A DNA stretch of 39,493 nt from Candidatus Endomicrobium labiotermitis (lineage in GTDB: Bacteria > Elusimicrobiota > Endomicrobiia > Endomicrobiales > Endomicrobiaceae), in assembly GCA_009778965.1 (NCBI GenBank), contig WRFE01000008.1, forward strand, positions 1 through 39,493, written 5' to 3'. Every line of letters starts with the position of its first letter. Position 1 is the first letter of the stretch. Positions 14,365-29,439 of this stretch are shown here, piece by piece. Below the pieces are notes generated by a model, which was given only the letters and a program-made list of their open reading frames with translations, searched no databases and was not told the DNA's origin. Position numbers and translations under genes: made by a program.

Positions 14365-14395
14365 AGACAAATAATAATTAATAATTGAATAAAGT

Positions 14396-14442
14396 AAAAA
14401 GAAACAGCCGATAACAATACTGTTACTGGCTGTTTCTTTTTT
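14396..14442 (+). terminator. Intrinsic terminator after etfA
   Basis: GAAACAGCC (14401-14409) pairs with GGCTGTTTC (14428-14436), extended outward by A/T pairs. The loop itself can form AACA/TGTT pairs. Followed by TTTTTTG. Closes the etf transcription unit. Confidence 0.85.
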
Positions 14443-14473
14443 GTTTTGGAAGTATTAATTGACATACTTGCTG

Positions 14474-14546
14474 TGTCACTCTGCGCGAAGTCGCAGGGTC
14501 TATGAATATTTATAGATTCTGTGAACGCTTTGCGACGCAGAATAAC
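14474..14546. repeat. REP-like palindromic element R1
   Basis: TGTCACTCTGCGCGAAGTCG starts it and TGCGACGCAGAATAACGA ends it; CTCTGCG pairs with CGCAGAA-like sequence across an internal ATAGATTC hairpin. The wording TCACYCTGNGCGAAGTCGNAGGGTCT matches R4 near hydE. Confidence 0.7.
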
Positions 14547-14573
14547 GAATAAGACGAATAGGTTTTAGAGAAG

Positions 14574-14602
14574 TTGTAAAAATCAAGCAACTTTTATAAA
14601 AT
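14574..14602 (+). promoter_or_regulatory. Weak candidate promoter for the autotransporter gene
   Basis: TTGTAA (14574-14579), a 17-base spacer and TAAAAT (14597-14602). Sequence quality is modest, but it is the best site found between the etfA terminator and the ATG at 14724. Confidence 0.35.
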
Positions 14603-14608
14603 AACGAT

Positions 14609-14677
14609 GTCATTATTGCGGACTTGAGCCGCAATCTCGTAGTAATTTATAGATTGCGGGTCAGGACCAGCAATGAC
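14609..14677. repeat. REP-like palindromic element R2
   Basis: GTCATTATTGCGGACTTGAG followed by CCGCAATCTCGT, then AGATTGCGGGTCAGGACCAG and CAATGACA. The ends GTCATT...AATGAC are complementary and each half forms its own hairpin. Same general TGTCATT...AATGACA plan as R3, R6 and R7. Confidence 0.75.
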
Positions 14678-14723
14678 AAACAGGGTTTAAAAAACGATTG
14701 TCATTAAAAAACAGGAGAAAAGC

Positions 14724-17700
14724 ATGAAAAAAGTTTTAATGTTTGTTTTATTTTTATCGGGCATAACAGTTCTGTCGGCAAGTCAGGCGTTTGCTCAATG
14801 GACATGGTATTATGCCGACGTCGTCACAGACCCTGCGGCGGAGATTAACATTTCTTCAACTCAGATAAGCGTTTCAGGTAATGTATTTCAGCCGGGAGGC
14901 TGGAGTATAGGACCGTCGGAATATGTAAAGATATATAATGCATGCGTGGGTATTGATACATATGAAAATATCGGCAATATTACCGTCAGCAACAGCTCAG
15001 CGGCTATAAACGGATTAGTTTCTGGCGGTAATTACATAGGAAATATCTTTATAGACATTGATACAAGCGGTTCGGTAGGAAATATTAATGCAAACCAAAA
15101 TTTTATTTCAATTAAAGATATGTCGAATGTCAACGGAGTCCTTTGTTCAGCCGACATATACATTGAGGCTGACAAAACCGGAAACATCACCGCAAATTCA
15201 AACAAGATTGAAGTAATTAATTCGCACGGATGGGTAGCATATGTTTTCGGAACAACCATTGGAAACAATATAGCTTCTTCTTCCTCATATACCATCACAG
15301 CAAACGCGAACGAAGTTTCTGTAACTTCTTCTTCCGTGGAGTATTCTATATATGGAAGTAATATGGGAATAGGCGGTGTTGCTAATATAACGTCGGATAA
15401 TAATAAAGTTACAGTAGCATATTCAACGGCAGGCAGCATTATCGGCGCTAATGTAGGCAGTTATTCCGATTTTGATATGAAAAACATGATAACACAGGCA
15501 AATAATAATTCGGTTTCAATATCAAATTCGTATTTTAATTCGTCCAATAGCGAGGCTTTTGGCACTTCGGGTAGCGGAGCGAATGTTATTACGAATAATA
15601 ACAGCTTGTCAATAGAAAACAGTTTAAGAATAGTAAATGTTTACGGCGCTTATTCATCCGCGTTGTTTAGCGCTAAAGCGAATAACAATTCCGTTTCTGT
15701 TAAAAATACGACCGCGAGGTCGGGTTATGACACGTTCATATGCGGCGGTGCATTGGACGGCGGAGATTTTATTTCTTGGGATGTATACAAAAATAAGTCA
15801 GATTTCGGAGTTTTTGAAGCAATAGGAAATTCGGTTCGTATTGAAAATCTTACAGGCGGCGATAGTCTAAAAATCTCCGGCGCGTACGGCGATATATATG
15901 CAGGAATAGGAAAAGTGAATAATAATTCAGTGTATATATTAAATTCCTCAACATCCGAATATGTATTTGGCGGGGATATTCAGTCGAACGGCGATGCTTT
16001 GGCTACAGAGTTATACGCCAACGAAAATACCGTAACGCTTGTAAATTCAATGGCTAATGCTATTTATGGCGGCAGTTCTCTTTCGCAGAATACGGCCGCG
16101 GATTATAATCCTATAACCGATACTTTTACACCCGGCGGAAAAACTTTAAACTTCGCAAATAGCAATAAAGTATTAATAACAAGCGGAAATGTTTTGAATG
16201 TTTGGGGCGCTTATGCGGATTCCAAAACGTCAAACGTACAAGCTAACAACAATAAAGTAGAAATATCGTATTCAACAGTAAGTTACGTTACAGGCGTTTG
16301 GGCGAGAAGCTATACCGATGACCCTGCAAACTCAACAGTTCAATCAAACAATAATTCGATTTCAATATCAAATTCAAATTTAAGCGGCAACTGTGTAAGC
16401 GGCGCTGAAACGCAAGGCGATAATGTATTTGCCTCCGGAAACAGCGTATCAATAGAAAACAGTTTACGTATGGCTTATGTTTATGGCGCTTATTCGGATT
16501 GGGCGCAGTTAAGCGCTAAAATAAACGGTAATTCCGTTTCTGTAAAAAATATAAACGCGAATAATGACGTATACATATACGGCGCCCAATTGTACTGCGG
16601 CGGCATGGGTTCTCCTTATGAAAATATAGGTCACAGCGGTTTTGAGACAAACAATAATTCCGTACGTATTGAAAATTTGACAAGTAACGATTATACGGAA
16701 GTAAACGGCGCGTATATCGGACTTGAAGCCGGCATAGGCGCGGCAAACCAAAATTCCGTATATATGTTAAATTCAAACGTTAGTAGTGTTTTTGGCGGAC
16801 ATGTTTATTCTGAGTACGATTGGATTGCCAGGGAACAATATGCGAATCAAAATTCCGTGACGCTTATAAATTCAACGTCAACTTATGTTTACGGCGGATA
16901 TGCTTATTCGGATGAATCTCGTCTTTCAAGCGTTTCTGCATCAGGCAGCGGAAATACTTTAAGCGTCGCAAACGGCAATAAAGTTTCAATAACAGGCGGA
17001 AGCGTCTATGTTGTTGACGGAGGTTATGCGGAATCCGAATCATCAAACGCTCAGGCTAATAACAATTCCGTTACGCTCGAAAATCTTTCAGGAACCGTAT
17101 ATTATATATGCGGCAGCGAAGCTTACGGTAAGTTTGACGGCGGAAAAGTCCAAGCTATAAATAATACGGTTACAATAATCGGCAATTTAGATGTTTCAGA
17201 CGGAATTTACGGCGGCTGGGCGCAAAACTTAGGAACTGGCGGATTTGATGATATTACCGGTAACACACTCAACGTTAAAGGCGGATATATTACGACTGAC
17301 GTAATTTACGGTTTTGAAAATTACAATTTTTATATTCAAGATGCAAATATTACGTCGCCGATTCTTTCTATAGCAAACGGATACTCGGGGAATACATTAG
17401 ACCTTTCTTCGGCAAACGTAAAAGTAATTTTGGGCAAAGGCGTAAAGCTGAATACCGGCGACGAAATTGTCTTAATGCAGAACAGTTCGGTCACAGGTAT
17501 TGCAAGCGAACTTAACAATTCGCAAATAGTAACAAAACAAGGTATAACCAAGATAAATACTTTTAACTTACATGTCGATACTGCCGCAAGCGCGGGCGTT
17601 CATACGTTAAATGCCACTCTTATTGCGATAAACGCTAACTCTGACGTAAAAGCTTTGTCAGAAGGCGTTGCGGGAGCAGTTATTGCGGCGGGACAAGCCG

Positions 17701-18527
17701 CGGACATGGCAAACGGTAATTTACTGTCTTCCGGTTTACAGGAAGGACAGCTGGAAGTCATAGGAGCGGCTTTTGGCGGAATCTCTAAATACAATACCGG
17801 TTCTTCGGTAGATGTCACCGCGTTTGGCGCAGTAGCGGGTATAGGAATGAAGTTAGCTCCTCTTTCCGCGGGAGTATTTGTAGAATATGTTAACGCAAGT
17901 TTTGATACGGAATATAACGGCATAACCGGCAACGGCAAAGCAAGCGCGATAGGCGGCGGCGTTCTTGCTAAAAAAGATATAAATAAAAATCTTTATGCGG
18001 AAGGAATGATAAGAGGCGGGCAGGTTTCAAACGATTATACAACCGAATTAGCCGATGAAGAAGGCATAACTGCGGATTTTGACCACAATTCAATCTATTT
18101 CGGTTTGGCTTTAGGCGGGGGATGCGTTTATCAAATCAATGAAAAAATAAGCATTGACGGATACGGAAGATATGTGTTCACAAATACAGGCGGAACAGAA
18201 GTTGATTTGCCGACCGGCGAAAAATTTAAATTTGATTACACAATGTCTAATCGCATAATAATAGGCGCGAAAGGCGACTATAAAATAAACGATATGTTTA
18301 CGCCGTATGCAGCGCTCTCTTACGATTACGAACTTAGCGGAGACATAACTGCGAAAATAGATGGAGCTGATATTGAAGTTCCGACATTAAACGGCGGAAC
18401 ATTTGTATTTGGTCTTGGTTCAAGCGCGAAAGTTATGGAAGGATTGACGCTGGATTTAAGTATAAACGGTTATGGCGGCGTAAGACAAGGCTTTTCCGGG
18501 TTTTTGAAGCTGAAATACGAAATTTAG
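14724..18527 (+). CDS. Autotransporter adhesin-like protein with Asn/Ser-rich repeat passenger
   Basis: 1267 residues. MKKVLMFVLFLSGITVLSASQAFA is a clear Sec signal peptide with cleavage before QW. Residues ~30-950 are a beta-helix-type passenger made of many short Asn/Ser/Val units of the form NNNSVSIxNS. Within it a block of about 280 residues is duplicated: ENSLRIVNVYGAYSS (near base 15614) recurs as ENSLRMAYVYGAYSD (near base 16454), and ENLTGGDSLKISGAYGDIYAGIG recurs as ENLTSNDYTEVNGAYIGLEA. Residues ~1000-1267 are an autotransporter beta-barrel with alternating segments such as AGVFVEYVNASFDTEY and a final FLKLKYEI. Self-transport to the outer surface and a role in adhesion are inferred from the architecture; the ligand is unknown. 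AGGAG precedes the ATG. It stands alone between terminators and REP elements. Confidence 0.88.
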   Translation: MKKVLMFVLFLSGITVLSASQAFAQWTWYYADVVTDPAAEINISSTQISVSGNVFQPGGWSIGPSEYVKIYNACVGIDTYENIGNITVSNSSAAINGLVSGGNYIGNIFIDIDTSGSVGNINANQNFISIKDMSNVNGVLCSADIYIEADKTGNITANSNKIEVINSHGWVAYVFGTTIGNNIASSSSYTITANANEVSVTSSSVEYSIYGSNMGIGGVANITSDNNKVTVAYSTAGSIIGANVGSYSDFDMKNMITQANNNSVSISNSYFNSSNSEAFGTSGSGANVITNNNSLSIENSLRIVNVYGAYSSALFSAKANNNSVSVKNTTARSGYDTFICGGALDGGDFISWDVYKNKSDFGVFEAIGNSVRIENLTGGDSLKISGAYGDIYAGIGKVNNNSVYILNSSTSEYVFGGDIQSNGDALATELYANENTVTLVNSMANAIYGGSSLSQNTAADYNPITDTFTPGGKTLNFANSNKVLITSGNVLNVWGAYADSKTSNVQANNNKVEISYSTVSYVTGVWARSYTDDPANSTVQSNNNSISISNSNLSGNCVSGAETQGDNVFASGNSVSIENSLRMAYVYGAYSDWAQLSAKINGNSVSVKNINANNDVYIYGAQLYCGGMGSPYENIGHSGFETNNNSVRIENLTSNDYTEVNGAYIGLEAGIGAANQNSVYMLNSNVSSVFGGHVYSEYDWIAREQYANQNSVTLINSTSTYVYGGYAYSDESRLSSVSASGSGNTLSVANGNKVSITGGSVYVVDGGYAESESSNAQANNNSVTLENLSGTVYYICGSEAYGKFDGGKVQAINNTVTIIGNLDVSDGIYGGWAQNLGTGGFDDITGNTLNVKGGYITTDVIYGFENYNFYIQDANITSPILSIANGYSGNTLDLSSANVKVILGKGVKLNTGDEIVLMQNSSVTGIASELNNSQIVTKQGITKINTFNLHVDTAASAGVHTLNATLIAINANSDVKALSEGVAGAVIAAGQAADMANGNLLSSGLQEGQLEVIGAAFGGISKYNTGSSVDVTAFGAVAGIGMKLAPLSAGVFVEYVNASFDTEYNGITGNGKASAIGGGVLAKKDINKNLYAEGMIRGGQVSNDYTTELADEEGITADFDHNSIYFGLALGGGCVYQINEKISIDGYGRYVFTNTGGTEVDLPTGEKFKFDYTMSNRIIIGAKGDYKINDMFTPYAALSYDYELSGDITAKIDGADIEVPTLNGGTFVFGLGSSAKVMEGLTLDLSINGYGGVRQGFSGFLKLKYEI

Positions 18528-18557
18528 AACGGCAAATAATAAATAACAATTAACAAA

Positions 18558-18609
18558 GCACAATAACGGCGGCGGCAATTTGATTGCCGCCGCCGTTATT
18601 GTGCCTTTA
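18558..18609 (+). terminator. Very strong hairpin terminator after the autotransporter gene
   Basis: A perfect 21-bp stem (18558-18578 with 18584-18604) closes a 5-base loop TTTGA; the stem holds two CGGCGG runs. The following CTTTAA is a short T-tract, so it may also act as an mRNA-stabilising 3' end. The loop region GGCAATTTGATTGCC echoes the terminator at 894-931. Confidence 0.8.
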
Positions 18610-18669
18610 AACATCCGTTTTGTTTGCGACAGGCTCCTTATTGCGTCTATTAGTGAGTATTTTTTGCCT
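18608..18669. repeat. Conserved intergenic element, copy B (truncated head)
   Basis: ATCCGTTTTGTTTGCGACAG, then CTCCTTATTGCG, TATTAGTGAGTATTTTTTGCC. This aligns with 38441-38505 before recA and 1042-1100 before icd. The second half, with the covarying hairpin, is missing, and REP-like element R3 begins at the break. Confidence 0.55.
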
Positions 18670-18670
18670 T

Positions 18671-18758
18671 GTTTGTCATTCCGTTGAAAAACGGAATCCA
18701 CATTTGTTTTTTATTATGAACAGTGAACTTAGATACCGACTTTCGTCGGTATGACAAA
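18671..18758. repeat. REP-like palindromic element R3
   Basis: TTTGTCATTCCGTTGAAAAA opens it and TCGTCGGTATGACAAA closes it. The left half forms ATTCCGT/ACGGAAT around GAAAA-like loop bases; the right half forms ACCGACTTTCGTCGGT. Its left hairpin is the same as R7 except for a compensatory pair swap. Confidence 0.75.
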
Positions 18759-18788
18759 AGAGCGGAAGTGCAACTTACTTTTGTCAAT

Positions 18789-18817
18789 TTGACTATAAAC
18801 ATATTTTTAAGTATAAT
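18789..18817 (+). promoter_or_regulatory. Promoter of the tRNA gene
   Basis: TTGACT (18789-18794), a 17-base spacer and TATAAT (18812-18817). Transcription would begin near 18824, leaving a leader of about 11 bases before the tRNA. Confidence 0.85.
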
Positions 18818-18834
18818 CTTCAAACATTTCTAGC

Positions 18835-18908
18835 GGGCCTGTAGCTCAGTTGGTTAGAGCACTCGACTCATAATCGAATGGTCGTAGGTTCAAGTCCTAC
18901 CAGGCCCA
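18835..18908 (+). tRNA. tRNA with anticodon CAT, probably tRNA-Ile2 (lysidine type)
   Basis: The 74-base cloverleaf is complete. The acceptor GGGCCTG (18835-18841) pairs with CAGGCCC (18901-18907), discriminator A at 18908. The D-arm is GCTC...GAGC, and the anticodon loop CTCATAA has CAT at 18869-18871. The T-arm is GTAGG TTCAAGT CCTAC. The anticodon stem has one C-A mismatch at its outer pair. CCA is not encoded. The GGGCCTG acceptor and the CGA/TCG anticodon stem resemble isoleucine tRNAs more than elongator Met, and initiator features are absent, so an AUA-reading Ile tRNA whose C34 is modified by TilS is preferred. Elongator Met is the alternative. Confidence 0.9.
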
Positions 18909-18944
18909 ATTTAATGTAAACGTAAATAGATTAAGTAATACTAC

Positions 18945-18975
18945 AACCGATAACAAAACCTGTTGTCGGTTTTTT
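18945..18975 (+). terminator. Terminator after the tRNA
   Basis: AACCGATAACA (18945-18955) pairs with TGTTGTCGGTT (18961-18971) with one G-T pair, loop AAACC, then a T-tract to 18975. Confidence 0.85.
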
Positions 18976-18987
18976 AATAGTAAGAAA

Positions 18988-19082
18988 ATGATGCAGAGAT
19001 GCAGGGATGCAAAGATGCGAAGCAAACTGCCTTTAAAGCCGTTGCTCCGCATCCCATCATCTTCGCATCTCATCTTCTGCAG
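18988..19082. repeat. Foldback element F4 (GATGCAGA-word type)
   Basis: Left arm: GATGCAGAGATGCAGGGATG then CAAAGATGCGAAGCAA (18990-19026). Right arm (19041-19081): TTGCTCCGCATCCCATCATC then TTCGCATCTCATCTTCTGCAG. The loop between contains CTTTAAAGCCGTTGCTC, carrying the core GCCGTTGCTC shared with F2 and F6. Confidence 0.75.
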
Positions 19083-19088
19083 TTTTTA

Positions 19089-19117
19089 TTGACATAAATA
19101 TATAAATCTTATAAAAT
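19089..19117 (+). promoter_or_regulatory. Likely promoter for the nfnA-nfnB pair
   Basis: TTGACA (19089-19094), a 17-base spacer and TAAAAT (19112-19117); TATAAA at 19110 is an overlapping alternative. It directly follows foldback F4. Confidence 0.65.
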
Positions 19118-19153
19118 AAATATCAAAATTTTTGTTTGATTCTAAGGTAAAAA

Positions 19154-20020
19154 ATGTTTAAAATCGTATTCAAAGAAGTCATGGCTCATAACGTAAAAAG
19201 TTATATTATATCTGCTCCCGATATAGCGAAAAATGCTAAAGCGGGGCAATTTGTTATGGTGCGCATAAATGATAAAGGCGAACGTGTTTCTCTTACGATA
19301 GCTAGCGCTGATATTGCAAACGGTACAATACGCATAATTTTTCAGGAAGCGGGGAAAACTACAAAGCAACTCGGAAGACTTGCCGAAGGCGATTGTATAA
19401 AAGATATTTTAGGCCCTTTAGGCATACCTACCGAAATTAAAAAATACGGCACGGTTGTTGCTGTTGCCGGCGGGGTGGGAACAGCGGAAGTTCTTCCCGT
19501 TATAAATTATTTACGCGCGGAAAGAAATAAAATAATCTCAATTATCGGGGCGAGAAATAAAGATCTTATTTTGCTTGAAAACGAAATAAATAAAAATTCA
19601 GATGAACTTATAATAGCCACGGACGACGGTTCTAAAGGCGTAAAAGGTTTTGTTACAACAGCTCTTACAGATTTAATAAAAAAAGGCGAGAAAATAGATA
19701 TGGTTTATGCCATAGGACCTGTTCCTATGATGAAATCCGTTTCCAATCTGACAAAAGAATATTCTATTCCGACTTTTGTTTCGCTTAACCCCATAATGGT
19801 TGACGGAACAGGAATGTGCGGAGCGTGCCGCGTAACTGTTGACGGAAAAACCCGTTTTGCCTGCGTTGAAGGTCCGGAGTTTGACGCTCATAAAATAGAC
19901 TGGGATGAACTTATTTCCCGTTTGTCGCTTTTTAGAGAACTTGAAAAAGTTTCTGACGAAAAATTCGCGAAAGAAAATTCATGCGAAGATAATCCGGAGT
20001 GCAAATGCCGCAAAAAATAA
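19154..20020 (+). CDS. nfnA: NfnA-like small subunit: NADH-dependent ferredoxin:NADP+ oxidoreductase (or sulfide dehydrogenase beta)
   Basis: 288 residues of the ferredoxin-NADP reductase superfamily, FNR/PyrK-like. The FAD-binding beta-barrel is N-terminal (AGQFVMVRIND; RVSLTIASAD). The NAD-binding part has VAVAGGVGTAEVLPV and AIGPVPMMK. A [2Fe-2S] site follows: Asp217 and Cys222, Cys225, Cys237 in VDGTGMCGACRVTVDGKTRFAC, the Asp/Cys3 arrangement described for NfnA. It overlaps the next gene by 16 bases and functions as a complex with it. Electron-bifurcating transhydrogenation of NADH, ferredoxin and NADPH is the likely role. Sulfide dehydrogenase SudB and glutamate synthase accessory subunits are close relatives that cannot be excluded. 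Confidence 0.9.
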   Translation: MFKIVFKEVMAHNVKSYIISAPDIAKNAKAGQFVMVRINDKGERVSLTIASADIANGTIRIIFQEAGKTTKQLGRLAEGDCIKDILGPLGIPTEIKKYGTVVAVAGGVGTAEVLPVINYLRAERNKIISIIGARNKDLILLENEINKNSDELIIATDDGSKGVKGFVTTALTDLIKKGEKIDMVYAIGPVPMMKSVSNLTKEYSIPTFVSLNPIMVDGTGMCGACRVTVDGKTRFACVEGPEFDAHKIDWDELISRLSLFRELEKVSDEKFAKENSCEDNPECKCRKK

Positions 20021-21381
20021 AAATGCCGCAAAGACCGGCTAACCAGAGAAATAAAGATTTTGAGGAAGTGACAACGGGTTATACCGAAAAAGACGCCGTA
20101 ACGGAAGCCGTGCGCTGCATACAATGCAAAGCGCCGCAATGCGTTAAAGGCTGTCCCGTAAATATTGATATTCCCGGTTTCATTAAACATATAGCCGGTA
20201 AAAACTATGAACAATCCATAAAAGTTTTAAAAGATAAAAATAATCTTCCGGCGGTTTGCGGCAGAGTCTGCCCTCAGGAAAACCAATGTGAAAAAATGTG
20301 CATACTCGGCAAAAAAGGCGACCCCATAGGTATAGGTTATCTTGAACGTTTTGCTTCGGATTGGGCAAGCGAAAATTTAGATATAGTAAAGCCGGAGATA
20401 CTTTCTAATAATATAAAAATTGCCGTTATAGGTTCGGGACCAGCCGGTCTTACATGCGCGGGAGATCTTGCGAAAGCGGGTTATGACGTAACGGTTTTTG
20501 AATCTCTGCACGATACCGGAGGCGTGCTCCGCTACGGTATACCGGAATTCAGACTGCCTATACTTGTTTTGGACAAAGAAATAGATTTTTTAAAAAGTCT
20601 GGGTATAAAGTTTGTTCTTAATTGCCTTATCGGAAGAACCAAGTCCGTAGAAGATTTATGGAACGAAGGTTTTAAAGCCATTTTTGCGGGGACAGGCGCG
20701 GGACTTCCTGTGTTTTTAAATGTTGAAGGCGAAAATTTGAACCATATATATTCTGCTAACGAGTTTTTGGTGCGAGTCAATTTAATGCGTTCTTTTGCTT
20801 TTCCGGAATACGATACCCCTATATATAAAGGCAAGAAAGTCGTTGTAGTCGGAGGCGGAAATACAGCCATGGATTCCGCTCGTACTGCATTAAGGCTTGG
20901 CGCGGAAAGCGTAAAACTTGTGTACCGCCGCACTGAAAATGAAATGCCTGCCCGCGTTGAAGAACGCCATCATGCCGCGGAAGAGGGCGTAGAGTTTGTA
21001 ACATTAACCAATCCTATCAGATTTTTAGGCGATGAAAAAGGTTTTGTTAAAGCCGTTGAATGCGTGAAAATGGAACTTACCGAACCGGATGAATCCGGAC
21101 GCAGAAAACCCGTTAAAGTCGCGAATTCCAATTTTATTATAGAAACAGATTTGGTTGTTTTGGCTTTAGGGTTAAATCCTAATCCTATTTTACCGGCGCT
21201 TACCAAAGGCCTTGAAACAGACTCACACGGTTATATCATTGTTGATGATAATTTAATGACACGTGTGCCCGGTATTTTTGCCGGCGGTGACATTGTCGGC
21301 GGCGATACGGTGATACAAGCTATGGGTATGGGGAAAAAAGCTGCCAAATCCATTGAAAATTATTTGAAAAACAATCCGTAA
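20005..21381 (+). CDS. nfnB: NfnB-like large subunit (GltD/sulfide dehydrogenase alpha-like flavoprotein)
   Basis: 458 residues. The N-terminal Fe-S domain has C38-x2-C41-x4-C46-x3-C50 and C85-x3-C89-x5-C95-x3-C99. It is followed by an FAD Rossmann motif (IAVIGSGPAGLTCAGDLA), the ETGGVLRYGIPEFRLP-type loop (here DTGG) and a second NADPH Rossmann motif (VVVVGGGNTAMDSARTALRLGA) with RRTENEMPAR. The C-terminal GIFAGGDIVGGDTVIQAMGMG is the family FAD end. A GTG at 19999 and an ATG at 20023 are alternatives; GGAG at 19996-19999 favours the ATG at 20005. Often auto-named glutamate synthase small subunit, but no large GltB is nearby and the partner is NfnA-like, so NfnB is preferred. Confidence 0.9.
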   Translation: MPQKIKMPQRPANQRNKDFEEVTTGYTEKDAVTEAVRCIQCKAPQCVKGCPVNIDIPGFIKHIAGKNYEQSIKVLKDKNNLPAVCGRVCPQENQCEKMCILGKKGDPIGIGYLERFASDWASENLDIVKPEILSNNIKIAVIGSGPAGLTCAGDLAKAGYDVTVFESLHDTGGVLRYGIPEFRLPILVLDKEIDFLKSLGIKFVLNCLIGRTKSVEDLWNEGFKAIFAGTGAGLPVFLNVEGENLNHIYSANEFLVRVNLMRSFAFPEYDTPIYKGKKVVVVGGGNTAMDSARTALRLGAESVKLVYRRTENEMPARVEERHHAAEEGVEFVTLTNPIRFLGDEKGFVKAVECVKMELTEPDESGRRKPVKVANSNFIIETDLVVLALGLNPNPILPALTKGLETDSHGYIIVDDNLMTRVPGIFAGGDIVGGDTVIQAMGMGKKAAKSIENYLKNNP

Positions 21382-21392
21382 AGTTTTTAGCA

Positions 21393-21422
21393 TTGACAGA
21401 CCGCATAAAATTGTTTTATAAT
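21393..21422 (+). promoter_or_regulatory. Promoter P1 of the carA-carB operon
   Basis: TTGACA (21393-21398), an 18-base spacer and TATAAT (21417-21422), both exact consensus. It leaves a leader of about 160 bases before carA. Confidence 0.85.
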
Positions 21423-21472
21423 TAGTTCCAACATAAATTTTAAATACCCAATAACTTCATAAGATTCTTCAC

Positions 21473-21506
21473 CCTAAAAGTTTTCAACTTTTAGGACATT
21501 TTTGTG
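21473..21506 (+). terminator. Leader hairpin upstream of carA (possible attenuator)
   Basis: CCTAAAAGTT (21473-21482) pairs perfectly with AACTTTTAGG (21486-21495) around the loop TTC, followed by ACATTTTTG. The stem is A/T-rich, so it is a modest terminator. It lies between P1 and a second TATAAT (21542-21547) that has no strong -35. Could attenuate P1 transcripts in response to pyrimidines or arginine; no coding leader peptide was recognised. Confidence 0.5.
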
Positions 21507-21588
21507 TGAAAAAATGATTTTTTATTAAAGCCGAAAAATGCTATAATCAACAATTAGAATAAATAAATTTTACATATAGGAATAAGCC

Positions 21589-22722
21589 ATGAAAAAACAT
21601 GAAAAGCTTTTGCAGAAAAAGTACAAAAAGGCTTATCTCGAGTTGTCTAACGGGGTAACTCTTGAAGGAAGCGCCATCGGCGCTGATGTAACTGTAAGCG
21701 GAGAAATGGTTTTTAATACGGGAATGTTAGGATATAGCGAAGCAATGTCAGACCCGTCATACTTAGGTCAAATTTTGGTTTTCAGCTTCTGTCTTATAGG
21801 TAATTACGGAATCCCTGCCCCCAAAGGCGGGGATTTTTTTATGACTAAGGGGCATGAAAGCAATTCCATAAAGGCGCAAGGCATAATAGTTTCCGATATT
21901 TACGACGGCTGTCATCATTATGACGGCGGAATGTCTTTGGAAGAATGGATGCTGGAAAACAATGTTCCCGGAATTGCAGGTATAGACACAAGATATTTGG
22001 TGCAGATGATAAGAGAAAACGGGAATCTTTTCGGACGTATTGTTTCGGAAAGCGCAAAAAAAGAAAAACTTAACAAATTTAAATTTTTAAATAATTTTAC
22101 CGAAGACGAATATGTTGACCCTTCAAAATATAATCTTATGCCGTCGGTTTCAACAAAAGAAATACAAAAATTCGGCAAGGGGTCAAAAAAAGTTGCCGTT
22201 ATAGACTGCGGAGCGAAACTTACTATTTCAAGAATGCTTGCGGAAAGAGGTTGTGAAGTTTTGCTTCTGCCTTGGGATACTGATTTTTCAAAGATAGACG
22301 CGGATGGCTGGATTATATCCAACGGTCCCGGCGATCCTCAAAACACAGGGGATTTAGTTGAAAGAATAAGAAAAGACGTGCTTGGTTCCGGGAAACCTGT
22401 TTTCGGGTTATGTCTCGGGCATCAGATATTAGCGCTTGCTGCAGGTGCTAAGACAAAAAGGCTTGCGCACGGGCACAGGAGCCATAACCAGCCCGTTTTT
22501 TCTCTTCCGGACAAACACGCGTATATGACAAGCCAAAACCACAGATACGCAGTTGACAAAAAGACAATACAGCCCGGCTGGGAGCTTTGGTTTGAAAATG
22601 CCAATGACGAATCCGTGGAAGGTTTGAAACATAAAACAAAGCCGTATATGTCTGTTCAATTCCATACCGAGAATGACACAAGCTGGGTTATGGATGAATT
22701 CGTAAACTTACTAAAAAAATAA
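21589..22722 (+). CDS. carA: Carbamoyl-phosphate synthase, small (glutaminase) subunit
   Basis: 377 residues. CarA hydrolyses glutamine and channels ammonia to CarB. The class I amidotransferase domain has the nucleophile Cys275 in VFGLCLGHQILALAAG and His359 and Glu361 in QFHTEN. The N-terminal half has the CarA-specific SGEMVFNTGMLGYSEAMSDPSY and GIAGIDTRYLVQMIRENG. The phrase SYLGQILVFSFCLIGNYG resembles the Bacteroidetes and eukaryote-type CPS lineage more than enterobacterial CarA; this is impression, not computed. AGGAA precedes the ATG. carB follows at 25 bases. Confidence 0.96.
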   Translation: MKKHEKLLQKKYKKAYLELSNGVTLEGSAIGADVTVSGEMVFNTGMLGYSEAMSDPSYLGQILVFSFCLIGNYGIPAPKGGDFFMTKGHESNSIKAQGIIVSDIYDGCHHYDGGMSLEEWMLENNVPGIAGIDTRYLVQMIRENGNLFGRIVSESAKKEKLNKFKFLNNFTEDEYVDPSKYNLMPSVSTKEIQKFGKGSKKVAVIDCGAKLTISRMLAERGCEVLLLPWDTDFSKIDADGWIISNGPGDPQNTGDLVERIRKDVLGSGKPVFGLCLGHQILALAAGAKTKRLAHGHRSHNQPVFSLPDKHAYMTSQNHRYAVDKKTIQPGWELWFENANDESVEGLKHKTKPYMSVQFHTENDTSWVMDEFVNLLKK

Positions 22723-22747: not shown

Positions 22748-25700
22748 ATGCCGATTTTAGATTTTTTACTTCCCAAAAACGGGAAAAAACAGAAAGTAAT
22801 TTTGTTGGGTTCGGGTGCATTGTCTATAGGGCAGGCAGGGGAATTTGATTATTCCGGTTCTCAGGCAATAAAGGCTTTGGTTGAAGAAGATTTGGATGTA
22901 ATCGTTATCAATCCTAATATCGCTTCGGTTCAGACTAACAGCGGTCCGGATAAAAAAGTTTACTTTTATCCTCTTACTCCGTTTTGGGTTGAAAAAGTTA
23001 TAAAGGCTGAAAAACCTGTGGCGATTATTTCATCATTTGGCGGTCAGACGGCTTTAAATTGTGTTATAGAGCTTGAAAAGAGCGGCGTTTTGAAAAAATA
23101 CGGCGTTAAAGTTTTGGGAACACAGGTTGACGCTTTGGTAATGTCTGAAGACAGAGACTTGTTTGCAAAACATATGCAGTCAATAAACTTGCCGATTGCA
23201 AAAAGCCGTACGGCAAATACAGTTGACGAAGCGTTGAATATTGCGGAAGAAATAGGCTATCCTGTAATTACCCGTTCCGCGTTTGCTTTAGGCGGGCTTG
23301 GTTCGGGGCTGGCAAAAACTCCCGCGGAACTTAAAAGGCTTACACAGTCGGCGCTGATGTCCTGCCCTCAGGTATTAATTGAAAAATCACTTCACGGCTG
23401 GAAGGAAATAGAATATGAAGTTATGAGAGATAAAAGCGGTAACTGCATAACAATATGCAATATGGAAAATTTTGACCCCATGGGTATTCATACCGGCGAT
23501 TCAATTGTTATCGCCCCTTGCCAGACAATAAACAGCAGAGACGTTAATATGCTTCGCGCCGCTGCCATAAAAATTGCAAGGAGCGTTGGTATTGTAGGCG
23601 AATGTAATGTTCAGTACGCGTTAGATCCGCAAAGCAGCGATTTTTTTATCATAGAAATTAACGCCAGGCTTTCACGTTCTTCGGCGCTTGCAAGTAAAGC
23701 GACGGGCTATCCTATAGCGTATATAGCCGCGAAAGTAGTTTTAGGTTTTGATTTGCTGGAACTTAAAAACCCGGTAACCGGTACAACGTCTGCATTTTAC
23801 GAACCGTCTTTGGACTATGTTTCGCTTAAGTTTCCGCGCTGGGATTTAAGCAAATTCAGCGGCGTTTCAAAATTTCTCGGCACTCAGATGAAATCCGTGG
23901 GCGAAGTTATGGCAATAGGCAGGAATTTTTGCGAAGCCATGCAGAAAGCTTTAAGAATGGTAAACGAAAACGAAGAGGGGATTACTGCCAGCGTTTTCAA
24001 AAATGCTGCTGACGAAGAACTTGAAAAAGAACTTTTAGACCCTACAAATTTGAGAGTATTTGCCATTTATGAAAGTTTTAAACGCGGTAAAACCATTGAA
24101 TATGTCCACGATAAAACAAAAATAGACTGCTGGTTTTTGTCTCATATTTATTATCTTGTTTCGGCTGAAATCGAGCTTTCTGCTTTTTTCGACGTAAAAA
24201 AGAAGCGCGACGCTGTTACCAAAAGCGAAATTTATAAAGATTTTTCAAAAATAGAAAAGCACCATCTTCTTCGCCTTAAATCCAGAGGATTTTCCGATTT
24301 CCAGCTTACAAAAATGTATTTGTCGGCTGTTTCTACGGGAAAAAACAAACTTACGATAAGAGAAATCAGAAACTTGTCGCTCGGTGTAAGAAAGTTAAGA
24401 AAGAAGCTTAAAATCCGCCCTGTTGTAAAACAAATAGACACTACATCTTCGGAATATGCGACTAAATCAAATTATCTCTATCTTACTTACGACGGCATAC
24501 ACAGCGATGTTTTGCCGAAAAAAGAGAAGAACAGTATAATTACGCTCGGCAGCGGAAGTTACCGTATAGGTTCGAGTCTTGAATTTGACTGGTGTTCCGT
24601 TATGACAAGCAGTTATTTTAAACAAAAGAAAAACGACAGCGTAATTATTAATTGCAACCCTGAAACGGTTTCTACGGATTTCAGCACTTCCGACAGGCTG
24701 TACTTTGAAGAGCTTTCTTTTGAAAGAGTTTTGGATATTATTGACATAGAAAATCCGAAAGGCGTAATAGCGTGCATGGGCGGACAAAATCCCAATAATT
24801 TAATCCCGCCTTTGAGCGACGTAAAAGTTAATATTTTAGGTCACAGCCCGAAAAGCGTTGAAGGAGCGGAAGACCGCGTAAAATTTTCGGCGATGCTTGA
24901 TAAATTCGGTATAGACCAGCCCCAATGGACTTCGGCAACTTCAATAGAAGAAATAGAAAAATTTATAGAAAGAGTCGGTTTCCCGGTTCTTATACGCCCC
25001 AGTTTTGTTTTGTCGGGTACTCTTATGAATGTTGCAAACGACAAGCAAAGCCTTGATTATTATTTGTCGCTTACCAAAGATATTTCCGCGGATTTTCCTG
25101 TTGTAATATCCCAGTTTATTCTTGACGCAAAAGAAATAGAGAGCGACGGTATAGCCAAAAACGGGGAAGTTATGTTGTCGCTTGTTACCGAGCACATTGA
25201 AAACGCCGGAGTTCATTCCGGAGACGCTACGATGGTATTTCCAGCGCAAAAATTATATGTGCATACTGCAAATGTAATAAAAGACATAACCAGAAAAATA
25301 GTTAAAGGTCTTAATCTTAACGGTCCTTTTAACATACAGTTTATCGCTAAGGATAATGACGTAAAAGTTATAGAGTGTAATGCAAGAGCGTCGCGTTCAT
25401 TTCCTTTTATTTCGAAAGTTTCGGGCGTAAATTTCGCGGAAGTCGCCTGTAAAGTTATGAATAATGAAAAAGTTAAAGAAATTCTTATAGATGAAAGCAA
25501 AATTCCGTATGTCGGCGTAAAAGCATCGATGTTTAGTTTTCAAAGACTTGACGGCGCAGATCCCGTAACAGGCGTTGAAATGGCTTCGACCGGAGAAGTC
25601 GGGTGTTTAGGCAAAAATTTTAACGAGTCTATGCTTTTGTCCATGGAATCCACAAAAATAGTAAAGCCTAAAAAAGGTATTTTGCTTAGCACCGGAAGAG

Positions 25701-26059
25701 AAAAAGACAAAGTTAAATTTATGGAAGTTATTGACAATATTTATAAATTAGGCGTTCCGGTTTACGCGACTAAAGGCACCGGCGAATATTTAAAAAAACA
25801 CGGTTATGAAGTAAATATTGTTCATTGGAACAGAACTCCCAGAGCGGTTGATACGATAATCGACGGTAAAGTTGATTTTGTAATAAATATAAACAAAAGC
25901 TTAACTGTTGACGAGCTTAAAAATAATTCGGAGATAAGAAAAACCGCGGTAAGATGCGGATGTTCCATTTTAACTAATCTTGAAAAGAGTATGGCATATT
26001 TCAGAGCGTTTGATTCATACGAAAGACTTCAAGATATAGAAGAGATGATAAGCCTTTAA
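22748..26059 (+). CDS. carB: Carbamoyl-phosphate synthase, large subunit
   Basis: 1103 residues, full length. Two homologous ATP-grasp synthase halves: the first opens with LGSGALSIGQAGEFDYSGSQ (~22-40), the second with TLGSGSYRIGSSLEFDWCS (~600). The first half phosphorylates bicarbonate and the second phosphorylates carbamate. EINARLSRSSALASKATGYP and ECNARASRSFPFISKVSGVN are the metal- and ATP-binding segments of each half. A C-terminal MGS-type regulatory domain (~960-1103) contains VYATKGTGEYLKKHGYEV. The linker QIDTTSSEYATKSNYLYLTY is of the type seen in eukaryotic and Bacteroidetes CPS. It provides carbamoyl phosphate for pyrimidine or arginine synthesis; no argF or pyrB lies in the window. 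Confidence 0.97.
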   Translation: MPILDFLLPKNGKKQKVILLGSGALSIGQAGEFDYSGSQAIKALVEEDLDVIVINPNIASVQTNSGPDKKVYFYPLTPFWVEKVIKAEKPVAIISSFGGQTALNCVIELEKSGVLKKYGVKVLGTQVDALVMSEDRDLFAKHMQSINLPIAKSRTANTVDEALNIAEEIGYPVITRSAFALGGLGSGLAKTPAELKRLTQSALMSCPQVLIEKSLHGWKEIEYEVMRDKSGNCITICNMENFDPMGIHTGDSIVIAPCQTINSRDVNMLRAAAIKIARSVGIVGECNVQYALDPQSSDFFIIEINARLSRSSALASKATGYPIAYIAAKVVLGFDLLELKNPVTGTTSAFYEPSLDYVSLKFPRWDLSKFSGVSKFLGTQMKSVGEVMAIGRNFCEAMQKALRMVNENEEGITASVFKNAADEELEKELLDPTNLRVFAIYESFKRGKTIEYVHDKTKIDCWFLSHIYYLVSAEIELSAFFDVKKKRDAVTKSEIYKDFSKIEKHHLLRLKSRGFSDFQLTKMYLSAVSTGKNKLTIREIRNLSLGVRKLRKKLKIRPVVKQIDTTSSEYATKSNYLYLTYDGIHSDVLPKKEKNSIITLGSGSYRIGSSLEFDWCSVMTSSYFKQKKNDSVIINCNPETVSTDFSTSDRLYFEELSFERVLDIIDIENPKGVIACMGGQNPNNLIPPLSDVKVNILGHSPKSVEGAEDRVKFSAMLDKFGIDQPQWTSATSIEEIEKFIERVGFPVLIRPSFVLSGTLMNVANDKQSLDYYLSLTKDISADFPVVISQFILDAKEIESDGIAKNGEVMLSLVTEHIENAGVHSGDATMVFPAQKLYVHTANVIKDITRKIVKGLNLNGPFNIQFIAKDNDVKVIECNARASRSFPFISKVSGVNFAEVACKVMNNEKVKEILIDESKIPYVGVKASMFSFQRLDGADPVTGVEMASTGEVGCLGKNFNESMLLSMESTKIVKPKKGILLSTGREKDKVKFMEVIDNIYKLGVPVYATKGTGEYLKKHGYEVNIVHWNRTPRAVDTIIDGKVDFVININKSLTVDELKNNSEIRKTAVRCGCSILTNLEKSMAYFRAFDSYERLQDIEEMISL

Positions 26060-26108: not shown

Positions 26109-26522
26109 ATGTGGTTAATTTATGCTCTTTTATCAGCCGTTTTTGCTGCTCTGGTAGCTATTCTTGCGAAAATCGGTATGCAAAATGTAAATTCTAACTT
26201 GGCTGTCGCGATAAGGACAGTCGTTGTTCTTGTTATTTCCTGGTCATTTGTTTTTGCCATAGGGAAACAAGGCGATATAGTGTCTTTAACGCAGAAAAAT
26301 TGGATTTTTTTGATACTTTCCGGAGTTGCTACGGGCATATCGTGGCTGTTTTATTTTAAGGCGCTGCAAATAGGTGAAGCGTCAAAAGTCATTCCGGTAG
26401 ATAAAATAAGTCTGGTTTTCGGAATCCTTTTTGCTTTTATGTTTTTAAATGAAGCCATAACTGTAAAAACAGTAATAGGCGGCAGTTTAATTGTTGCAGG
26501 AACGCTTGTTTTGGCATTATGA
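26109..26522 (+). CDS. Small EamA/DMT-superfamily transporter (half-size)
   Basis: 137 residues with about five hydrophobic helices (approximately 3-22, 30-50, 66-86, 97-115, 119-137). This is one EamA repeat rather than the usual two, so it must dimerise. Family features include the start WLIYALLSAVFAALVAILAKIG, the mid-segment LFYFKALQIGEASKVIPVDK and the end GGSLIVAGTLVLAL. Inner-membrane drug/metabolite transporter; the substrate is unknown. It lies in the car-pur operon, so nucleotide-related cargo is possible but unproven. Confidence 0.85.
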   Translation: MWLIYALLSAVFAALVAILAKIGMQNVNSNLAVAIRTVVVLVISWSFVFAIGKQGDIVSLTQKNWIFLILSGVATGISWLFYFKALQIGEASKVIPVDKISLVFGILFAFMFLNEAITVKTVIGGSLIVAGTLVLAL

Positions 26523-26554
26523 CGGAAATAATTTTTGTCGTAAAGGAATAAAAT

Positions 26555-27925
26555 ATGGGCGGAATTATCGGAGTTGAAAACACGCAAGACGCGTCTACGC
26601 TGGTTGCCGTAGGGCTTATGACTTTGCAGCACAGAGGGGAAGAATCGTCGGGTATAACCATAAGCGGAAATGAAGGTATGAAGACTTTCCGCTCTACGGG
26701 GCTTGTTTCGCGCCTTGTAAATTCCGACGCGTTAAATAAGCACACTGGAACTGCCGCTATAGGTCACGTACGTTATACGTCTGCCGCGAAAAGTTCTTTA
26801 GTTAACGCGCTGCCTTTTCAGATGAGCTGCATACACGGTCAGGTTTCGGTTGCTCAAGACGGCAATCTTACGAATTTTACAAAACTAAAAGATATGCTTT
26901 TAAAACGCGGAGCGATTTTCAGCCATACTTCCGATACTGAAATATTGCTTCATCTTATCGCGATGTCAAAGGGCAGTTTTCCGGATGTTATCGCGAAATC
27001 TTTAAAGATGCTTGACGGCGCGTTTTCTGTTGTTGTTCTAAGAGAGAAAACGCTTATAGGCGCGAGAGATATTAACGGTATCAGGCCGCTTGTTTTAGGA
27101 AAAATCGATAATTCCCATATGCTTGCTTCCGAAACATCCGCTATCGAAGTTATGGGCGGAAAATATATAAGGGATATAGAGCCCGGGGAAATAATTGTTA
27201 TAGAAAACGGGCGTATAAAAAAATCGTTTTTTTATAAAAAATCGGTAAAACAGTCAACCTGCATATTTGAGCAGGTATATATTTCAAGACCGGACAGTAT
27301 GGTGTTCGGGCAAAGCGTTAAAGAAGCCAGGGTAAAAATGGGTGCTTATTTAGCCGAACAGATGAAAGGCGTTAAAGCCGACATTGTTATGCCTGTTCCA
27401 GATACAGGATATTTTGCGGCTATGGGATTTTCAAGAGCTTCGGGAATTCTTTTTGAAGCGGGTTTTGTCAGAAATCATTATTTAGGCCGTTCTTTTATTA
27501 AGCCTTCACAGCATTTAAGGGATTTAACGGCAAAACTGAAACTCCGTCCGATAAAAGACGTTGTCAACGGCAAAGATATAGTTCTTATCGACGATTCAAT
27601 AGTAAGAGGCACAACATCAAGAAGAATTATAAAAATGCTTAAAGACGCGGGAGTAAAAAAAATTCATTTGGCTTTGTCTTGTCCTCCCGTGATAGCTCCT
27701 TGTTTTTACGGCATAGATACGCCTGTTAAAGAACATTTAATCGCGGCAACTCAGTCTAAGGAAAAAATAAAAAAATATCTTGAAGTCGAAAGTTTGACGT
27801 TCCTGAGTCTGGATAATCTTGCAAAAGCCTGCTGCGCTTTGGAAAAATGTAAAAATGGTTTCTGCACGGCATGTTTTTCAAATAAATATCCGACTAAAAT
27901 TTCAAAAGACACATACAGAGAGTAG
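26555..27925 (+). CDS. purF: Amidophosphoribosyltransferase (PurF) lacking the glutaminase Cys
   Basis: 456 residues. PurF makes phosphoribosylamine from PRPP and glutamine, the first purine step. The PRTase half is canonical: SRPDSMVFGQSV, MPVPDTGYFAAMGF, GRSFIKPSQHLRD, PRPP loop VLIDDSIVRGTTSRR, SCPPVIAPCFYGIDTP. The Ntn glutaminase half is recognisable (LQHRGEESSG with Arg27, GHVRYTSA with Arg73, SHTSDTEI with Asp127). However, the protein starts MGGIIGV, so Gly2 replaces the N-terminal catalytic Cys, and AQDGNLTN has Asp102 where the oxyanion Asn is expected. A stop codon two codons upstream rules out an N-terminal extension. Glutaminase activity is therefore doubtful; ammonia-dependent activity or an external ammonia source is inferred. 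AAAGGA precedes the ATG. Confidence 0.93.
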   Translation: MGGIIGVENTQDASTLVAVGLMTLQHRGEESSGITISGNEGMKTFRSTGLVSRLVNSDALNKHTGTAAIGHVRYTSAAKSSLVNALPFQMSCIHGQVSVAQDGNLTNFTKLKDMLLKRGAIFSHTSDTEILLHLIAMSKGSFPDVIAKSLKMLDGAFSVVVLREKTLIGARDINGIRPLVLGKIDNSHMLASETSAIEVMGGKYIRDIEPGEIIVIENGRIKKSFFYKKSVKQSTCIFEQVYISRPDSMVFGQSVKEARVKMGAYLAEQMKGVKADIVMPVPDTGYFAAMGFSRASGILFEAGFVRNHYLGRSFIKPSQHLRDLTAKLKLRPIKDVVNGKDIVLIDDSIVRGTTSRRIIKMLKDAGVKKIHLALSCPPVIAPCFYGIDTPVKEHLIAATQSKEKIKKYLEVESLTFLSLDNLAKACCALEKCKNGFCTACFSNKYPTKISKDTYRE

Positions 27926-27954
27926 CATTAGAATGGCTGTAAGCGGGAGAAAAA

Positions 27955-29439
27955 ATGAAAATCAGTTTTGATAATTCATCTTATATGGAGAAGCAAACCG
28001 AGGAGATACTTAAGAGGGTAGAGCAGTTTAACCACAAACTGTATCTTGAATTCGGCGGAAAGCTTTTTGATGATTCTCACGCTGCCAGAGTTTTACCCGG
28101 ATTCAACGTAAACGGTAAAATTTTGCTTCTTGAAAAGTTAAAAGAAAAAACAGAAATTATTATATGTATTAACGCCGCTGATATTGAAAAAAATAAAATA
28201 AGAGCCGATTTGGGAATTACTTATGATATGGATGTTTTGCGTTTGATTGACAGCGTCAGAAAAATGGGACTTTACATAAGCAGTATTGTTATTTCGCAGT
28301 ATAAGAATCAGCCTTCCGCGGATATGTTTAAAAATAAGCTTGAGCGCAGAGGAGAAAAAGTATATATTCATAAGCCTATTATAGATTATCCTATGAATAT
28401 AGATCTTGTCGTGAGTGATAAAGGATACGGCTCTAACCCGTATATAGAAACGACCAGACCTCTTGTGGTAGTTACGGCGCCCGGTTCCGGAAGCGGAAAA
28501 ATGGCAACCTGTCTTTCCCAGATATATCACGAGCATAAAAGAAATATAAACGCGGGATACGCTAAATTCGAAACATTTCCTATATGGAATCTGCCTTTAA
28601 AACATCCGGTAAATCTTGCCTATGAAGCCGCTACCGCTGATTTGAACGATGTGAACGCGATTGATCCTTTTCATTTGGAAGCATACGGGGAAACGGCAGT
28701 GAATTATAACAGGGATATTGAAGTATTTCCGATTGTAAAAAACATACTTACCAAAATTATGGGGACCGACAAAATTTATCAGTCTCCGACGGATATGGGC
28801 GTTAATATGGCGGGGTATTGTATTACCGATGACGAAGCTGTAAGAGAAGCCGCAAAGCAGGAAGTTGTTAGACGCTATTTCAAAACATGGTGTTATTATA
28901 AAGAAGGACGTTTGGGAATCGAAGCTGTTGAAAAAGTAGAAATTATAATGAAGCAGCTTGAAATATTTCCGGAATACGGTTTAGCGGTTGTGCCTGCATT
29001 AGAAAAGTCTAAACAAAACAATTGTCCTGCCATGGCTTTGGTTTTGCCCAACGGAAACGTTATAACCGGAAAAACCACAAGTGTATTAGCGGCGTCTTCA
29101 AACCTTGTATTGAACTGTATTAAAAATTTGGCTGGTATTCCCGATGATATTCATCTTATTTCTCCAACTGTTTTAGAACCCATGCTTATGTTAAAAGAAA
29201 AAATCCTTTACGATAAAAACCCTTTGCTCAGCCTTGAAGAGGTGTTAAACGCTTTGAGTATATGCGCCGCCACAAATCCGTTAGCTGAAAAAGGTCTTTC
29301 AAAACTTCAAAATTTGAGAGGTTGTGACGCCCATTCCTCGCATATGTTATCGAAAGCGGATGAAGACGCTCTTAAAAAATTAGGCATAAATGTTACGTGT
29401 ACGCCCGAGTTTCCGTCAGATAATTTATACTATATTTAA
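27955..29439 (+). CDS. DUF1846-family protein of unknown function
   Basis: 494 residues, the usual length for DUF1846 (UPF0371), a conserved bacterial family with solved structures but no agreed activity. KLYLEFGGKLFDDSHAARVLPGF opens it. Residues ~175-185 read APGSGSGKMAT, a phosphate-loop-like motif, followed by CLSQIYHEHKR. Later conserved runs are ETFPIWNLPLKHPVNLAYEAAT, SPTDMGVNMAG and LRGCDAHSSHML. It starts 29 bases after purF and is followed closely by phoH, so it is probably co-transcribed. A nucleotide-linked function would fit the P-loop-like motif and the neighbours, but this is not established. Confidence 0.85.
   Translation: MKISFDNSSYMEKQTEEILKRVEQFNHKLYLEFGGKLFDDSHAARVLPGFNVNGKILLLEKLKEKTEIIICINAADIEKNKIRADLGITYDMDVLRLIDSVRKMGLYISSIVISQYKNQPSADMFKNKLERRGEKVYIHKPIIDYPMNIDLVVSDKGYGSNPYIETTRPLVVVTAPGSGSGKMATCLSQIYHEHKRNINAGYAKFETFPIWNLPLKHPVNLAYEAATADLNDVNAIDPFHLEAYGETAVNYNRDIEVFPIVKNILTKIMGTDKIYQSPTDMGVNMAGYCITDDEAVREAAKQEVVRRYFKTWCYYKEGRLGIEAVEKVEIIMKQLEIFPEYGLAVVPALEKSKQNNCPAMALVLPNGNVITGKTTSVLAASSNLVLNCIKNLAGIPDDIHLISPTVLEPMLMLKEKILYDKNPLLSLEEVLNALSICAATNPLAEKGLSKLQNLRGCDAHSSHMLSKADEDALKKLGINVTCTPEFPSDNLYYI

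Follow-up and report, generated by a model that had tools for sequence, protein, structure and literature searches.

A purF gene that has lost the catalytic cysteine of its glutaminase domain is present in a window of 39,493 nucleotides, the whole stretch of DNA analysed here, which belongs to the genus Endomicrobium (family Endomicrobiaceae, phylum Elusimicrobiota). The encoded protein is likely to be a working PRPP amidotransferase that no longer hydrolyses glutamine and instead forms phosphoribosylamine by combining PRPP with free ammonia, a function that is inferred, as there are no activity data. What the sequences show is the loss of this cysteine in three species, the presence of a single purF, purifying selection on the gene, and a pattern of presences, absences, and lesions among the other glutamine-using enzymes of the clade.

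PurF and its missing nucleophile

The purF gene (26555–27925, forward strand) encodes a 456-aa protein that matches NCBIfam TIGR01134 over residues 3–446 with 427 bits, the curated cut-off being 350 bits. Its structure model (pLDDT 84, pTM 0.83) has 1ao0, 1gph, and 6lbp as best PDB matches, with TM values of 0.91–0.93 to the B. subtilis PurF entries 1ao0 and 1gph; E. coli PurF is matched as well, and the N-terminal domain is still folded in the prediction. The start codon (ATG, 26555–26557) is followed by GGC (26558–26560, forward strand) and GGA, and the protein thus begins MGGIIGV, with Gly2 at the position where relatives use TGC to encode the nucleophilic Cys. Immediately upstream and in frame lie AAT (26552–26554) and the stop codon TAA (26549–26551); because this stop is only two codons 5' of the ATG, no N-terminal extension can conceal a cysteine. 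A second change affects the motif that reads AHNGN in relatives and AQDGN here (26852–26866, forward strand), in which His101 and the oxyanion Asn102 are replaced by Gln and Asp, respectively. Two criteria for a glutamine-dependent PRPP amidotransferase (EC 2.4.2.14), the N-terminal Cys nucleophile and the HNGN oxyanion Asn, are therefore not met.

Other functional residues are retained. Arg27, Arg73, and Asp127 are kept and are invariant in an alignment of 25 sequences, and the PRTase domain has both its flexible loop (YLGRSFIKPSQ) and an intact PRPP-binding loop, VLIDDSIVRGTTS (27578–27616, forward strand; core IDDSIVRGTTS), whose residues D347, S348, V350, R351, G352, T353, and T354 are invariant in the alignment. 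The initial annotation, made from the sequence alone, had pointed to Gly2 in MGGIIGV with a stop two codons upstream, to Gln101 and Asp102 in AQDGN, and to the integrity of the three residues above and of the PRTase domain; all of this held, upon verification of the codons, alignment with relatives, and the 25-sequence alignment, respectively.

The source genome (G000) is a 1.89 Mb draft in 107 contigs, estimated to be 99.97% complete, and a search for PurF across it recovered the Cys-less form as its sole PurF. Targeted searches of this draft found no second PurF, and hence none with Cys2, which the initial annotation had proposed to look for, and no other class II glutaminase (GlmS, GltB). 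The absences reported below for this and the other genomes likewise rest on targeted searches of drafts.

Cysteine loss within Endomicrobium

The nearest named relative, with 82% identity, is Candidatus Endomicrobium macrotermitis (GenBank JAISVT010000011), on which the assignment of the window to Endomicrobium rests, and a termite gut is inferred from the relatives to be the host environment of the source genome. A search for relatives provided three Endomicrobium genomes for comparison, namely Candidatus E. macrotermitis (G001), G002, a single 1.59 Mb contig that we take, by inference, to be E. proavitum or a close relative, and G003; G017 represents a neighbouring genus. Residue 2 of PurF is Gly in G000 (GGC) and G003 (GGT), Ser in G001 (TCA), and Cys (TGC) in G002 and G017. 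The Cys-less proteins of the two sister genomes, each the one full-length PurF of its genome, begin MGGIVG or MSGIIG, and their HNGN regions read SKNGN in G003 and AHNGS in G001. The cysteine is present in all 30 other aligned PurF sequences, from family members and outgroups. The comparison with related genomes called for in the initial annotation thus shows the Cys to be absent from two sister genomes and kept in G002 and the other family members aligned.

These data bear on the possibility that the missing cysteine is a sequencing, assembly, or start-codon error. The draft status of the source genome, with its 107 contigs, leaves room for such errors, but the in-frame stop upstream of the ATG and the use of three different codons (GGC, GGT, and TCA) in three genomes, one of which has its own GenBank deposit, all but exclude this explanation; in particular, an error at 26558–26560, which would have refuted the original proposal, is contradicted by the sister genomes. 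It could also be imagined that another nucleophile, for instance Ser2 in G001, still hydrolyses glutamine, as serine is the nucleophile of some Ntn hydrolases. This is very unlikely: a glycine at position 2 offers no side chain, G000 has in addition a replacement of the oxyanion Asn102, and E. coli PurF with a Cys-to-Ser replacement has no glutamine activity (PMC3261824).

G000, G001, and G003, whose Cys-less PurF has either Gly2 or Ser2, form a clade with 100% support. Within this trio, the position of G000 is not resolved by the trees: PurF pairs it with G003, the other Gly2 form (100%), PurL pairs it with G001 (100%), and the concatenate gives only 40%. As a consequence, losses shared by G000 and G001 cannot be distinguished from parallel ones, and the number of independent losses is undetermined.

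Among PurF columns that are otherwise invariant, those altered in the glutaminase domain number five in G000 (C2G, T76S, Q86L, H101Q, N102D), three in G003 (C2G, T76S, H101K), and three in G001 (C2S, N104S, R177M), versus one each in the PRTase domain, and several of them (C2, H101, N102, N104) are active-site positions. Among the Cys-less genomes, dN/dS is about 0.05–0.12 in both domains, which indicates that purF is maintained by purifying selection; pseudogene decay, considered as an explanation, was rejected on this basis. The ratio of N-terminal to PRTase divergence is 1.6–2.1 for Cys-less pairs, as compared to a mean of 1.15 (SD 0.26, extreme 3.0) for Cys-bearing pairs, and the glutaminase domain of the Cys-less proteins thus evolves faster than the PRTase domain, if only modestly so.

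Separately, a second PurF-like protein of 474–488 aa, starting MSGLFG or MSGIFG and also devoid of the Cys, exists in other Endomicrobiaceae and relatives (loci L198, L199, L200, and L201); no protein of this type was found in G000.

Nitrogen assimilation, other amidotransferases, and the purine pathway

In the window, the gene order is etfB-etfA-large uncharacterised ORF-nfnA-nfnB-carA-carB-eamA-purF-DUF1846-phoH. The initial annotation had placed purF in an apparently expressed operon with carAB, which needs a minor correction: a small gene for an EamA-family membrane protein (26109–26522; PF00892, 76 bits) intervenes between carB (22748–26059, a full-length open frame) and purF; carA lies at 21589–22722, and all of these genes are on the forward strand. 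In G002, the order is etfB-etfA-(split glutamate synthase)-glnA-response regulator-carA-carB-purF-pyrG. Relative to this arrangement, the purF cluster has lost the glnA and glutamate synthase genes upstream, where the etfA–carA stretch (14365–21588) holds instead the large ORF and the NfnA/NfnB-like pair, and the glutamine-using pyrG downstream. A 29-nt junction (27926–27954) separates purF from a gene for a DUF1846 protein (27955–29439, forward strand), which is found 3' of purF in all three Cys-less genomes; in G002 pyrG directly follows purF, and no pyrG was found in G000. The repetitive 1267-aa ORF (14724–18527), which has no match in Pfam and whose start resembles a signal peptide, occupies the place of the glutamate synthase and glnA genes of G002. 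In G001 and G003 (loci L193 and L195), the nfnA/nfnB-like pair is flanked by a divergently oriented gene for NADP-glutamate dehydrogenase; the pair in the window (19154–21381) has no such neighbour, and gdhA of G000 is located at the edge of contig C23.

Targeted searches did not find the type I glutamine synthetase GlnA in G000, G001, or G003, and it is present in G002 and G017; G003 does keep a type III-like glutamine synthetase of 723 residues (locus L092). Among the five genomes compared, glutamate dehydrogenase, NADP-specific according to NCBIfam, has the mirror-image distribution, being found only in G000, G001, and G003. The same kind of search, in these three near-complete genomes, did not find the CTP synthase PyrG. 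Its absence contrasts with the retention of carAB and further pyrimidine genes and leaves the origin of CTP unexplained.

Several other glutaminases are also missing or damaged. In targeted searches, GlmS and PurQ were not found in G000 and G001, with PurL kept, and both are present in G003; HisH was not found in G000 and was recovered only from G002, G003, and G017. The nagB gene is part of glmM-pdxJ-glmS-nagB in G003, directly follows pdxJ in G001, and is separated from pdxJ by a different gene in G000. GuaA has lost its glutaminase core, including the Cys and His, in both G000 (428-residue frame) and G001 (412 residues), and in both genomes the C-terminal synthetase part is intact, with a score far above the cut-off. 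TrpG of G000 carries Ser in place of the nucleophilic Cys (GISLGHQ versus CLGHQ in the others). The adjoining TrpE (L108:15774-17291) shares only some 58% identity with its relatives, and it is possible either that the gene was acquired or that it evolved fast without a glutaminase partner. The synthetase parts PurL, GuaA synthetase, PurF PRTase, and TrpE are thus all kept in G000.

CarA of G000 retains the class I glutaminase Cys, His, and Glu (CLGHQ, FHTE), and has lost ASSGP after HPE, a deletion following the His-x-Glu motif that is common to all three genomes with Cys-less PurF; in G003, CarA additionally reads CLGNQ and has Tyr for the catalytic His. GatA is intact, with its full catalytic triad, in all genomes. 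Since the GatA triad and, in G000, the CarA Cys, His, and Glu are preserved, the cell probably still has access to some free glutamine or asparagine, and these intact or near-intact enzymes argue against a complete absence of glutamine. No GlnRS was found beside GluRS, in a search with a joined query in which the C-terminal part of GlnS was cut and whose sensitivity is below that of a family model. This result suggests GatCAB as the presumable source of Gln-tRNA, and the only slight depletion of glutamine in proteins (2.5–2.8% versus 2.8–3.1%) fits with this route. Overall, the capacity for glutamine amidotransfer appears eroded across the Cys-less Endomicrobium clade. In G003, Gly2 in PurF coexists with GlmS, PurQ, GuaA, TrpG, HisH, and the type III glutamine synthetase; the change in PurF therefore does not presuppose that all glutamine synthesis is lost, and it can precede the loss of other glutaminases.

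A separate glutaminase could in principle supply ammonia to PurF, as the initial annotation had offered as an alternative, and two-subunit layouts are indeed common among class I amidotransferases (CarAB, PurLQ, TrpEG). However, the N-terminal domain of PurF itself is retained and folded in the model, the searches yielded no further class II glutaminase, and the class I enzymes that remain are CarA and the Ser-mutated TrpG. As the intact hydrolases found are only CarA and GatA, each with its own partner, this alternative is not supported and is very unlikely.

The purine pathway itself presents gaps. Neither PurC nor PurS was recovered from G000 or G001 with one joined query, which covered PurC, PurS, PurD, PurE, NagB, PurH, PurB, GlnS, and Udk and does not reach the sensitivity of a family model. 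No remnants of purC, purS, purQ, glmS, or pyrG were seen in the stretches of G000 and G001 that were examined, which were the only ones inspected. With PurC and PurS not found, the pathway looks interrupted after PurE. Either an unrecognised protein replaces the SAICAR synthetase or the pathway is cut, both of which are possible, and the route to AICAR in these two genomes is not accounted for. The PurL proteins of G000 (L135:3351-5741) and G001 (L136) sit together on a long branch (0.32) that sets them off from G003, G002, and G017, and conserved motifs are altered in the G000 protein, e.g., KVETHNH to KDETHNH.

PurF might accordingly be a relict that no longer serves purine synthesis and is kept only for a small flux, for example AIR for thiamine, on free ammonia. 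The failure to detect PurC and PurS, the unusual divergence of PurL in both genomes, and the fact that phoU directly abuts purL in G000 (locus L135) speak for this view. Against it, PurH, PurE, PurD, PurM, PurN, PurB, PurL, and GuaA are present, with low dN relative to dS for those tested, and G003, which has PurC, PurS, and PurQ, still carries Gly2 in PurF. A relict PurF is thus unlikely, and would in any case still require ammonia as donor.

Ammonia as the probable amide donor and relation to known systems

The preferred reading remains that of an active, ammonia-dependent PurF. As no other class II glutaminase was found in G000, no donor other than free ammonia is plausible. The PRTase domain would join PRPP and free NH3 to give phosphoribosylamine, while the former glutaminase domain would be retained as structure, perhaps with a regulatory role. 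When the cysteine of E. coli PurF is replaced, glutamine use is abolished and ammonia use is kept (Mei and Zalkin 1989, cited in PMC3261824). The ammonia-dependent PRPP amidotransferase suggested in the initial annotation is thus supported, without an assay, by the clade-wide loss of the Cys, the lack of a second purF, the failure to find a glutamine synthetase, the presence of GDH, and the loss of other glutaminases.

In this view, the change in PurF would be one element of a clade-wide replacement of glutamine by ammonia that concerns part of the genus Endomicrobium: NADP-glutamate dehydrogenase is present, glutamine synthetase has been lost or reduced, and a number of amidotransferases have a missing or damaged glutaminase part beside a synthetase part that was kept. 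The same ammonia pool may serve NADP-GDH, a reversed NagB, PurL without PurQ, and GuaA without its glutaminase. Termite guts contain much ammonia: concentrations in the Cubitermes posterior hindgut reach 130 mM (PMC7886697), and the gut of Macrotermes muelleri has 173 umol per g dry weight (PMC4675541). That PurF uses NH3 in vivo, that gut NH3 is sufficient, and that a reduced glutamine supply was the cause are inferences. A bolder reading, to which we lean only slightly, is that a gut lineage of Endomicrobium with a non-reduced genome has largely given up glutamine as amide donor, with PurF, PurL, GuaA, TrpE, and the glucosamine-phosphate step (NagB reversed) running on free ammonia, GDH present, and GS lost. 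The losses would have begun with PurF and CarA, a stage represented by G003, and then extended to most of the other glutaminases, the relatives preserving intermediates.

In bacteria, the synthesis of purines, pyrimidines, amino sugars, tryptophan, and GMP almost universally relies on glutamine as a shared nitrogen carrier, and cells are usually considered to contain too little free ammonia. The clade offers a natural graded series in which glutaminases are disabled one by one and their synthetase partners kept, making it testable in closely related species why cells channel glutamine-derived ammonia and when this becomes dispensable. Cys-less Endomicrobium are predicted to depend on an ammonia-rich gut, and best-hit annotation of purF, guaA, and trpG as glutamine-dependent may mislead for the whole lineage.

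The closest known counterpart is the B. subtilis-type PurF (TIGR01134; 1ao0, 1gph), which shares the two-domain architecture, about 42% identity, the TM values given above, and the PRPP loop. C236, C383, C437, and C440 are also conserved, at positions that correspond to the Fe-S ligands of the B. subtilis enzyme. The window PurF differs in lacking the Cys nucleophile, in its changed oxyanion Asn, and in its predicted use of ammonia only. PurF without this cysteine is already known, from laboratory mutants and from a crenarchaeal second copy. The crenarchaeal PurF' also has no N-terminal Cys, and an ammonia-dependent role was proposed for it, although untested (PMC3261824); it occurs beside a normal PurF, whereas the Cys-less protein of the window is the sole PurF. 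The E. coli Cys1 mutants (Mei and Zalkin 1989, cited in PMC3261824) have lost the same residue but were made in the laboratory, whereas the Endomicrobium case is natural and extends to three species.

As far as the literature searched shows, the wider change of nitrogen donor in this clade is undescribed. Within Endomicrobiaceae, GlnA is present in most free-living members and lost in the endosymbiotic genus Endomicrobiellum (PMC11257099), and the relevant sections of that study make no mention of glutaminase loss. Blochmannia vafer has similarly lost GlnA, with ammonia suggested as the donor for CarAB (PMC3017870), but it is an intracellular symbiont without GDH, and no erosion of glutaminase domains is described in the sections bearing on it. 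Finally, single-domain ammonia-dependent NAD synthetase uses free ammonia in vivo without a glutaminase (PMC3376133); that case concerns one widespread family, whereas in Endomicrobium the change extends to several unrelated amidotransferases of a single lineage.
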